Below are positions 41,727-44,623 of a stretch of 64,000 nucleotides of DNA, one piece after another. The stretch is from contig JAFYRW010000025.1 in assembly GCA_017546785.1 (NCBI GenBank), forward strand, positions 1 through 64,000. The letters are read 5' to 3'. Within the stretch, counting starts at the first letter, position 1. The number at the start of each line of letters is the position of its first letter. The stretch is from Bacteroidaceae bacterium (GTDB lineage: Bacteria; Bacteroidota; Bacteroidia; Bacteroidales; Bacteroidaceae). Under the pieces are notes generated by a model. That model was not told where the DNA came from. It was given only the letters and a program-made list of their open reading frames with translations, and ran no database searches. The translations under genes were made by a program, and so were the position numbers.

Positions 41727-42317
41727 CTACGGTACAAGCTCGTTTATAAGAGGGATGAGCACTTTTTTCACAATCTCATCGTTCAGACGATGCTCGCCTG
41801 CGAACCATATACAGCGCTCCTCTCCATACAATTTTGCGGTGAGAGGCTGAAAATGCACAACAGGATCCTTGTCGCCGAAGAGAGCTCTGACAAGCTTTTT
41901 CTCATCTTCGTTTATGCCATCGAACTGAATCTTTTCCATCAGTTTAAACTGCTCGACAACTTTTTTGTCTACACGAAACTCCGTTGCGCCATCCTTGCGC
42001 TTAGAGGTATATTTATTGCGTCCCATCTTTCCGAAGAGCAGCGAGCGCGACATTTCGAACGAAGGATTGACCAATATTCGAGGGAAGCCCCACAGCTGCT
42101 GGGTAAACATTCCTCCCATAGAGGTTCCTACGACAATGTCGGGCTTCTCATTCTCGACGGTTGCACGCAGAAGCGCCATCGCCTCGAACGGGTCTATTGG
42201 AAGGTCGGGAGCAACCACTCTCCAACCATCCAAATAACGACGCAATGCCATTACTGTACCCGATGAGCCCGACGAAGCAAAGCCGTGCACATACATTAGT
42301 TTCTTATACTCCGACAT
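41727..42317 (-). CDS. YqiA/YcfP-type alpha/beta-hydrolase
   Basis: A 196-residue small esterase-like protein (UPF0227 style). The strand-loop MYVHGFASSGSSGTV sits where these enzymes bind the oxyanion, the nucleophile elbow is GTSMGG, and the late WFAGEHRL supplies a histidine. It starts 11 nt after the trpB2 stop codon, so it is transcribed behind the tryptophan attenuator. There is no signal peptide. The substrate is not known; a link to tryptophan metabolism is only suggested by position. Confidence 0.8.
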   Translation of the reverse strand: MSEYKKLMYVHGFASSGSSGTVMALRRYLDGWRVVAPDLPIDPFEAMALLRATVENEKPDIVVGTSMGGMFTQQLWGFPRILVNPSFEMSRSLLFGKMGRNKYTSKRKDGATEFRVDKKVVEQFKLMEKIQFDGINEDEKKLVRALFGDKDPVVHFQPLTAKLYGEERCIWFAGEHRLNDEIVKKVLIPLINELVP

Positions 42318-42328
42318 TCCTGCTTATA

Positions 42329-43678
42329 TTATAGATTGCCGACATTCTTCTCTATCTCCTCGGGGCTTACAGTGTAATTTGTCAAGCTACCCGACAGATA
42401 CTGGTCGTACGCTGCCATATCAACAAGGCCGTGTCCCGAGAGGTTGAAGAGAATGACTTTTGATTCCCCTGTCTCCTTGCAACGCTTAGCCTCCTCGACA
42501 GCTACTGCAATGGCGTGACACGACTCGGGAGCAGGAATAATACCCTCGGCCTTTGAGAAGAGCAGTCCCGCCTCGAACGACTGCAGCTGACTGACGTCGG
42601 CAGCCTCCATCAATCCATCCTTATAAAGCTGAGAGACAACCACTCCGGCACCGTGGTAGCGCAATCCTCCTGCGTGGATATTCGCCGGGCGGAAATTATG
42701 GCCCAAAGAGAACATTGGCATAAGAGGAGTGTAGGCGCTCTCGTCGCCGTAGTCGTAGCAGAATTTTCCGCGTGTAAGCTTAGGACACGACTCAGGCTCT
42801 GCTGCAATGAAGCGGGTCTTCTTGCCATCCAATATATTGTGGCGCATAAAGGGGAACGATATTCCCGAGAAGTTAGAACCTCCACCGAAACAGCCGATGA
42901 CAATATCGGGATATTCACCAGCCTTCTCCATCTGCTTCTCTGCCTCAAGGCCTATGATTGTCTGATGTAGGCTGACGTGACTCATCACAGAGCCTAACGC
43001 ATATTTGCAATTAGGTGTTGTAAGAGCAAGCTCAACAGCCTCGGAAATTGCCGTACCCAACGAACCCTGATGGTTGGGATAAAGGGTAAGGATATCCTTT
43101 CCGGCGCGCGTAGACATTGAGGGAGATGGAGTTACCTGCGCTCCGAATACCTGCATCACACTGCGGCGATAGGGCTTCTGATTGTAGCTTATCTTTACCT
43201 GATATACCGCACACTCCAGTCCAAAGACTTTAGAGGCGTAAGAAAGGGCACATCCCCACTGTCCGGCGCCTGTCTCGGTTGTTATATTGGTGGCACCCTC
43301 TTTTTTGCAGTAGTAAGCCTGCGGCAACGCCGAATTAAGTTTATGCGAACCTACGGGGCTTACACTCTCGTTCTTGAAATATATGTGAGCTGGAGTACCG
43401 AGAGCCTCCTCGAGACCATAAGCGCGCACAAGAGGCGTTGAGCGATAGTAGCGATACATCTCGAGTACAGGCTCGGGAATATCAATCCAAGCGTCGCTGA
43501 AGTTCAGCTCCTGAGAAGCAGCCTCGCGCGAGATAAGCTGCGAGAGTTCATCTACTGTAATAGGCTTCTTTGTCTTAGGGCTGAGCATAGGCTGAGGCTT
43601 ATTTTTCATATCAGCCTGTATATTGTACCACTGTGTGGGTAATTCATTGTCGGCAAGAAAATAACGTTTCTGTTTCAT
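42329..43678 (-). CDS. Tryptophan synthase beta-like protein, TrpB2 type
   Basis: A PLP enzyme of 449 residues, the longer TrpB2 class rather than the about 400-residue TrpB1 that pairs with TrpA. The PLP lysine is Lys113 in SPVGSHKLNSALPQ. The phosphate-binding loop GCFGGGSNFSG and the C-terminal NLSGHG block agree. TrpB2 condenses indole with L-serine and often acts without TrpA. The upstream leader peptide with three Trp codons directly supports a Trp-related role. The YqiA-like hydrolase gene follows in the same unit. Confidence 0.93.
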   Translation of the reverse strand: MKQKRYFLADNELPTQWYNIQADMKNKPQPMLSPKTKKPITVDELSQLISREAASQELNFSDAWIDIPEPVLEMYRYYRSTPLVRAYGLEEALGTPAHIYFKNESVSPVGSHKLNSALPQAYYCKKEGATNITTETGAGQWGCALSYASKVFGLECAVYQVKISYNQKPYRRSVMQVFGAQVTPSPSMSTRAGKDILTLYPNHQGSLGTAISEAVELALTTPNCKYALGSVMSHVSLHQTIIGLEAEKQMEKAGEYPDIVIGCFGGGSNFSGISFPFMRHNILDGKKTRFIAAEPESCPKLTRGKFCYDYGDESAYTPLMPMFSLGHNFRPANIHAGGLRYHGAGVVVSQLYKDGLMEAADVSQLQSFEAGLLFSKAEGIIPAPESCHAIAVAVEEAKRCKETGESKVILFNLSGHGLVDMAAYDQYLSGSLTNYTVSPEEIEKNVGNL

Positions 43679-43710: not shown

Positions 43711-43746
43711 AATAAAAAAGGCCCACCTTTTCGTGAGGTAAGCCTT
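43711..43746 (-). terminator. Attenuator terminator (3:4 hairpin) before trpB2
   Basis: On the minus strand AAGGCTTACCT (43746-43736) pairs with AGGTGGGCCTT (43728-43718): 11 bp with two T-G pairs, loop CACGAAA, followed by TTTT A TTT. It stands between the leader peptide and trpB2, so it ends transcription early unless pairing is disrupted. Confidence 0.93.
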
Positions 43747-43803
43747 TGTATATATCAAGCGGTGATACACAAGCAAGCTGCTCACGAAATTTTTCCTGAG
43801 CAA
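43729..43803 (-). promoter_or_regulatory. Alternative pairings of the trp attenuator (1:2 and 2:3)
   Basis: Segment 1 TTGCTCA (43803-43797) pairs with TGAGCAG (43784-43778): 7 bp including one T-G pair. Segment 2 TTTCGTGAG (43789-43781) pairs perfectly over 9 bp with CTCACGAAA (43737-43729). The second helix uses the terminator loop and the top two base pairs of its stem, so 2:3 and 3:4 exclude each other, and 1:2 and 2:3 share bases TGAG. Confidence 0.85.
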
Positions 43804-43838
43804 TGCCACCACCAATTCAGTACGCAACAATTATTCAT
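43782..43838 (-). CDS. trpL: Tryptophan leader peptide, 18 residues
   Basis: A short open frame on the minus strand reads MNNCCVLNWWWHCSGKIS and stops at TGA (43784-43782). Codons 9-11 are three consecutive TGG. Its stop codon lies inside segment 2 of the attenuator (43789-43781), so a ribosome that reaches the stop covers segment 2 and lets the terminator fold, while a ribosome stalled at the Trp codons covers segment 1 and frees segment 2 to form the antiterminator. A promoter-like pair (43864-43894) precedes it. The name follows function; homology to other TrpL peptides was not checked. Confidence 0.88.
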   Translation of the reverse strand: MNNCCVLNWWWHCSGKIS

Positions 43839-43863
43839 AATGAATTATGTTTATCTACGGTTG

Positions 43864-43894
43864 CGAAGTTATAGCATTTTATGTAAAAAGCAAC
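43864..43894 (-). promoter_or_regulatory. Promoter of the trp leader-trpB2 unit
   Basis: GTTG (43894-43891), 19-nt spacer, TAACTTCG (43871-43864) on the minus strand, one mismatch in each box. The predicted start lies about 20 nt before the leader ATG. Confidence 0.55.
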
Positions 43895-43918: not shown

Positions 43919-44623
43919 TTATTCGAAATAAAACGAAAGTGCTATCATTTTGGCAACAGCCTTATCCACCGATTGGGTAAATTTCAGATAGTTGGCATCG
44001 AGAAGGTCGTTTCTCTCCTTCTGCAGAATGTCGATAAAGCTGAAAGAGAATTTAAGCTCGGGATTGAGCTTGAAGAATGGCAGATAAAAATCGCAGCCCA
44101 ATCCAACCTCCACCATACAGTCGAACGATTTTACAAGCAGAGGACGCTGCTTCTTTATTGTAAGATCGAACATCGGGCTTAGTCCGGCAACCACATAAGG
44201 ACGGTAGTTGTTGAAACGCTCGGCGGTAATCTTTGCCTGTATGGGCACAGCAATATATGTCGATTTTATCTGCTGACGCTCAATCTTACCGCTGTTAAGT
44301 TCGCGGAATACAACCCGTTTGTCGCCAAAATACATTCCGGGCAACAGACGCAATGCCACAAAGTCGTTCAGACGAAGGTCGGCAAGCACTCCAACGGTAA
44401 AGCCGGGAGTGTAGGTATCAACGTCGGCGTACCACTGCTCGCCATCGGCTGTAACAAAATTATTATTGGCAAGCTCAAGATCCTGCATATGCAGTCCTAC
44501 ATAAAAGCCATAATGGAACCTGCGATAGTCAATGTATGGCCTATTCTGCAGCTTGCGTTCCTGAGCCACAAGCGCTGTGAGCGGCAAAATGAGCAATAAT
44601 AATATGTATAGGGTTCTTCTCAT
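43919..44623 (-). CDS. porT: PorT-family outer-membrane protein
   Basis: A 234-residue barrel protein of the PorT type, with signal peptide MRRTLYILLLLILPLTALVA and an end in LSFYFE with aromatic terminal residues. The segment HYGFYVGLHMQDLEL and the late LNPELKFSFSF agree with PorT of Porphyromonas, which is needed for type 9 secretion. PorT is also kept in species with a reduced system, so its presence alone does not prove T9SS. The gene stands alone between the trp unit and the divergent ferredoxin gene. Confidence 0.8.
   Translation of the reverse strand: MRRTLYILLLLILPLTALVAQERKLQNRPYIDYRRFHYGFYVGLHMQDLELANNNFVTADGEQWYADVDTYTPGFTVGVLADLRLNDFVALRLLPGMYFGDKRVVFRELNSGKIERQQIKSTYIAVPIQAKITAERFNNYRPYVVAGLSPMFDLTIKKQRPLLVKSFDCMVEVGLGCDFYLPFFKLNPELKFSFSFIDILQKERNDLLDANYLKFTQSVDKAVAKMIALSFYFE

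Follow-up and report, generated by a model that had tools for sequence, protein, structure and literature searches.

In the leader of the E. coli trp operon, tandem Trp codons lie in segment 1, segment 2 alternates between pairing with segment 1 and pairing with segment 3, and segments 3 and 4 form the terminator. For the Bacteroidota, a Bacteroidete tryptophan peptide leader RNA was listed by Weinberg et al. 2010 (PMC2864571) and is curated as RF01692 (Bacteroid-trp). We analysed a window of 64,000 nucleotides from a Bacteroidaceae bacterium, in which a short leader precedes a stand-alone trpB2 gene, and conclude that this leader very probably regulates trpB2 by ribosome-mediated transcription attenuation, sensing charged tRNA-Trp. 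The proposed mechanism resembles that of E. coli trpL in its tandem Trp codons, its segment 2 alternating between segments 1 and 3 and its intrinsic 3:4 terminator, but the window leader targets a single trpB2 gene instead of a biosynthetic operon and carries its stop codon inside segment 2. Trp-responsive attenuation would thereby be tied to a stand-alone enzyme in organisms without a Trp pathway.

The first-pass annotation had suggested looking for a matching leader in Rfam, and a related family does exist there, although its match to the window falls below the gathering score. With relaxed thresholds, RF01692 aligns to positions 43860-43737 at 39.5 bits (E = 0.0016; gathering score 49), and this is the only match to the family in its genome. 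At gathering scores, an Rfam scan of the window returned a tRNA as its sole match, and the Rfam family Trp_leader did not match the window leader. The RF01692 alignment is full-length (positions 1-131), brings UGGUGG into register and also takes in AAAGGCUU of the terminator 5' arm, with some non-standard pairs flagged. Both elements belong to the Bacteroidota and have a short ORF with adjacent Trp codons, a 1:2 stem and the same segment logic. They differ in what they precede: among 201 family genomes, strong RF01692 matches are found some 6 kb upstream of trpA, where canonical trp operons begin, whereas matches in front of trpB2 are sub-threshold, all 20 leader-bearing trpB2 loci staying below the gathering score. 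A second RF01692 match in genome G020 has no Trp-codon ORF at the site and was set aside as noise. Judged by sequence, we regard the window leader as a diverged relative of RF01692 below the curated cut-off and do not assign it to the family formally. Since RF01692 already covers Trp leaders of the Bacteroidota, elements of this type were known before; the novelty lies in the trpB2 target, the position below the Rfam cut-off and the leader's exchange between trpB and trpB2. A search of the available literature found no paper on a trpB2 attenuator in Bacteroidota, and the present analysis extends the curated leader family to a set of leaders before trpB2 that fall short of the Rfam cut-off.

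On the minus strand, which carries all parts of the leader, the order read from the sequence is porT (43919-44623; NF052311 match), promoter, short ORF, terminator and trpB2 (42329..43678), with 80 nt between the end of porT and the leader ATG. Promoters of the Bacteroidota have the consensus TAnnTTTG at their -7 element, to which the putative -7 element TAACTTCG (43864..43871) comes close, with the -33 element TTG (43891..43893) 19 nt upstream. The leader peptide ORF MNNCCVLNWWWHCSGKIS (43782..43838) runs from an ATG at 43838-43836 to a TGA at 43784-43782. It has 18 codons, with TGG TGG TGG at codons 9-11 (43806..43814), exactly as the first-pass annotation had described. Beyond the 449-aa trpB2 product, an ORF resembling the esterase YqiA (41727-42317) begins 11 nt past trpB2 on the same strand; its match is weak (43 bits against a cut-off of 252), and it would be co-transcribed with trpB2 under the attenuator.

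The regulated gene had been called TrpB2-type, and profile searches bear this out. Its product, a TrpB-like PLP enzyme, scores 681 bits against NF009057 (cut-off 366) and 583 bits against TIGR01415 (cut-off 519), and reaches 142 bits against the canonical TrpB family TIGR00263, below the cut-off of 392; solved relatives include 6hul, 4qys and 6hte. Neither trpA nor trpC (IGPS) was found in any of 41 genomes of the genus, while 14 of 14 control genomes were positive for each, and the window genome yielded no trpD and no other TrpB, canonical trpB included, an absence to be read against its being a MAG that is 90.6% complete. Because the genus has neither trpA nor trpC, TrpB2 probably salvages indole. 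The simplest reading of these gene absences in a 90.6%-complete MAG is that the organism is a Trp auxotroph which makes Trp from the indole of others by means of TrpB2. Gut bacteria of the genus Bifidobacterium salvage exogenous indole by tryptophan synthase (PMC11085991). Indole salvage seems to have been lost as well in 21 of the 41 genus genomes, which have no TrpB of any kind, although some of these may reflect MAG gaps.

On balance we favour an attenuator dedicated to indole salvage, in which, among gut Bacteroidaceae that no longer have the Trp pathway, the leader sits on the last beta-subunit gene able to make Trp (trpB2 where it is alone, canonical trpB where both are present) and Trp starvation would turn on the scavenging of indole from the community. 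The alternative with most to recommend it keeps the Trp-responsive attenuator but gives TrpB2 some other task, using O-phosphoserine or catalysing beta-elimination, so that Trp would act only as a signal. For archaeal TrpB2, dependence on O-phosphoserine has been described, and the NCBI families label the window protein merely 'TrpB-like'. We nevertheless think this unlikely, because the same type of leader also heads canonical trp operons, and sister genomes have it before a stand-alone canonical TrpB in place of TrpB2, as expected if both enzymes serve Trp supply. A pair of TrpB paralogues from T. kodakarensis also acts in indole salvage, according to the title of a work cited in PMC11085991. 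Tying Trp-responsive attenuation to a stand-alone enzyme opens regulated indole scavenging by gut Bacteroidaceae to direct testing.

Within the genus, the placement of the leader differs with the set of TrpB genes. A WW leader precedes trpB2 in 15 of the 15 genomes in which TrpB2 is the sole TrpB, 14 having been found by a covariance model (R1) and the degenerate one in G085 by eye. Five genomes (G172, G201, G208, G215 and G221) encode both canonical TrpB and TrpB2 but no TrpA, and here the WW leader stands before TrpB in 5/5 and before TrpB2 in 0/5, some of these two-TrpB genomes being fragmentary and absence from a MAG being weak evidence. The full-length leaderless TrpB2 proteins and a second copy from G205 group in a single clade (support 100/100); the swap of the leader is therefore one event and not replicated evidence. 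Even so, an exchange between trpB and trpB2 within one genus provides a compact case in which regulation tracks function and not the gene. A family-wide rule, that the leader is present only where TrpB2 is the sole TrpB, was considered and dropped: the association (24/50 versus 7/91, p = 7e-8) is driven by two genera, falls to p = 0.10 without them and gives p = 0.16 when permuted within genera. A family-wide link between the leader and a lack of trpA or TrpB is therefore confounded by genus, and we do not claim the rule as general.

Outside the genus, G051, G058, G137 and G009 have a leader in front of a stand-alone canonical trpB without a neighbouring trpE. At four loci (L143, L152, L153 and L157) spread over several genera, a stand-alone canonical trpB has a WWW leader and is followed by an asparaginase-like gene (VLLIYTGGTIGM) instead of trpE; the trp operon has thus repeatedly been pared down to trpB, with the old leader kept. 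Locus L151 (G030:C15:65500-69600) encodes a distant TrpB2 of 53% identity behind a leader whose core, WWWRPLQL, is of the canonical type, unlike that of the window genus, and which was possibly acquired independently. Two contigs titled Roseburia sp. and Bacillota (L085 and L099) carry a Bacteroidaceae-type trpB2 with 77-78% identity to that of the window and are probably misbinned or mislabelled MAG contigs.

The leader RNA contains the three pairings on which attenuation of this kind depends. Segment 1, the 5' arm of the anti-antiterminator (TTGCTCA, 43797..43803), pairs with TGAGCAG (43784-43778) in a 7-bp helix with one G-U. Segment 2 (43778..43789) includes the leader stop codon and, through TTTCGTGAG (43789-43781), forms a perfect 9-bp helix with segment 3, CTCACGAAA (43729..43737), which corresponds to the terminator loop and the top two stem pairs. 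These two helices and the position of the stop codon are as first annotated. The intrinsic terminator (43711..43747) and its T-run are likewise present, but the stem has 12 bp where 11 had been counted: its arms are AAAGGCTTACCT (43747-43736) and AGGTGGGCCTTT (43728-43717), around a 7-nt loop of CACGAAA (43735-43729). No other site in the 3.5 kb scanned has 12 pairs, and the hairpin 43746-43711 folds at -14.7 kcal/mol. The leader RNA as a whole has a folding z of -3.8, with 0/200 shuffles equally stable, and TGGTGGTGG occurs once in the window against an expectation of 0.2. The complementarity of segments 2 and 3 in the window alone is modestly unusual (p = 0.012).

Folding from successive start points reproduces the alternation. 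RNA beginning at segment 1 folds into the 1:2 helix plus the terminator (-29.1 kcal/mol), whereas RNA beginning at segment 2 forms the 2:3 helix with the terminator broken (-26.0 kcal/mol). When the 3' arm of the terminator is left off, 2:3 pairing is preferred even with segment 1 present (-24.7 kcal/mol). Each of these three folds outperforms shuffles by 3.4 to 4.6 standard deviations, and a predicted hairpin between segments 2 and 3 (43749..43771; 9 bp, loop of 5) is kept in both alternatives. Exclusion between antiterminator and terminator had been thought partly steric. That description suits the 9-bp core, but with segment 1 removed the antiterminator is predicted to pair further, AGCUU (43775..43779) with AGGCU (43741-43745), and to occupy about 7 of the 12 bases of the terminator 5' arm, so exclusion would be mostly competition for bases and not steric alone.

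The spacing of these elements fits a ribosome. Segment 1 begins 3 nt and segment 2 17 nt past the last Trp codon, and the footprint of a ribosome stalled at the Trp codons would hide segment 1 and leave segment 2 free, while a ribosome at the stop codon would hide both. In the proposed mechanism, RNA polymerase would start near 43860 and a ribosome would translate the leader behind it. With Trp-tRNA scarce, the ribosome would stall at codons 9-11, covering segment 1 but not segment 2, and the freed segment 2 would pair with segment 3 before the 3' arm of the terminator is made, allowing read-through into trpB2. TrpB2, the sole TrpB homologue found in the window genome, would then make Trp from external indole. 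With ample Trp-tRNA, the ribosome would reach the stop codon in segment 2, or would leave and let 1:2 pair; in either case the 3:4 terminator would follow and transcription stop near 43711.

Conservation among relatives was assessed in a family set of 141 trpB2 upstream regions, counting as a leader any ORF that starts with ATG, spans 8-45 codons, contains adjacent TGG codons and lies within 260 nt. WW leaders are present in 31 of the 141. The same ORF search over these regions with 11 other codons returned 0-3, shuffled sequences gave 0-1 and reverse complements 6. The leader type recurs in several other genera, and the motif TAnnTT[T/C]G lies no more than 75 nt upstream of the ORF in 28 of the 31 leaders, compared with a mean of 1.7 in shuffles; a TTG at the -33 position accompanies most of them. 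In nearly all leaders with a found terminator pairing, segment 2 starts 17-24 nt past the last Trp codon. The first-pass annotation had looked to relatives for Trp codons kept in the same position and for covariation in the three helices, and both are seen, with compensatory changes in 1:2, 2:3 and 3:4. Within the core of the 1:2 helix 98.8% of cells are paired, and C-G is replaced by T-A in 6/21 sequences. The 2:3 helix is paired in 92.9%, against at most 55.8% for slid versions, and has double changes at 4/9 pairs, while the terminator stem has them at 5/9; the 2:3 and 3:4 covariation counts refer to 14 leaders, drawn from those before trpB2 of other genera and before canonical trpB. In the window genus, segment 3 is displaced slightly compared with these 14 and falls on the 5' side of the loop of the terminator, whereas in other RF01692-type leaders it lies in the loop and the 3' arm. 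Native pairs of segments 2 and 3 are more stable than swapped ones (means of -17.5 and -13.8 kcal/mol; permutation p = 5e-5, uncorrected for relatedness). The hairpin between these segments has no sequence conservation among relatives. On these comparative grounds we take the element to be a conserved RNA switch belonging with the classic trp attenuators.

The thermodynamic flip from terminator to antiterminator is confined to the window and a few others. In most relatives, full-length RNA folded from segment 2 onward still has the terminator in its minimum-energy structure, from which it follows that antitermination there must be kinetic, with the order of synthesis decisive. Searching the window genome with R1 turned up no further Trp leader, such as one in front of a transporter; a weak match elsewhere in that genome (G000:C25, E = 0.8) was taken as noise.

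The pattern of conservation bears on two further rival readings. A short Trp-containing leader peptide in front of a Trp-related gene also recalls TnaC, in which spaced residues act together with one Trp codon, and in a system of that kind the peptide would bind free Trp in the ribosome tunnel and stall, so that high Trp changes expression. We consider this very improbable for the present leader, in which the constant feature is two or three adjacent TGG codons while the N-terminus of the peptide is free to vary and RNA segment 1 accounts for the residues that follow WWW; the 1:2, 2:3 and 3:4 helices are moreover all conserved, and trpB2 makes Trp and does not degrade it. That the terminator simply insulates trpB2 from porT, the ORF being fortuitous and regulation absent, is scarcely credible and was rejected: porT does end close upstream on the same strand and the terminator is intergenic, but a promoter sits between porT and the leader, and other genera retain the WW codons and segments 1 and 2 with almost constant spacing.

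His and Leu leaders of Bacteroidota also appear as low-score RF01692 matches with terminators, differing from the window leader in their control codons and target genes. At L146 (G168:C44:16500-20500), the leader ORF MRNYTTHRHHHYLT is followed by a terminator in front of a hisG-like gene (RF01692 E = 0.09); this is probably a His attenuator built in the same way. At L148 (G132:C34:1000-4500), a short ORF and a terminator with a weak RF01692 match precede a 2-isopropylmalate-synthase-like gene (leuA), making this locus a candidate Leu-type attenuator.
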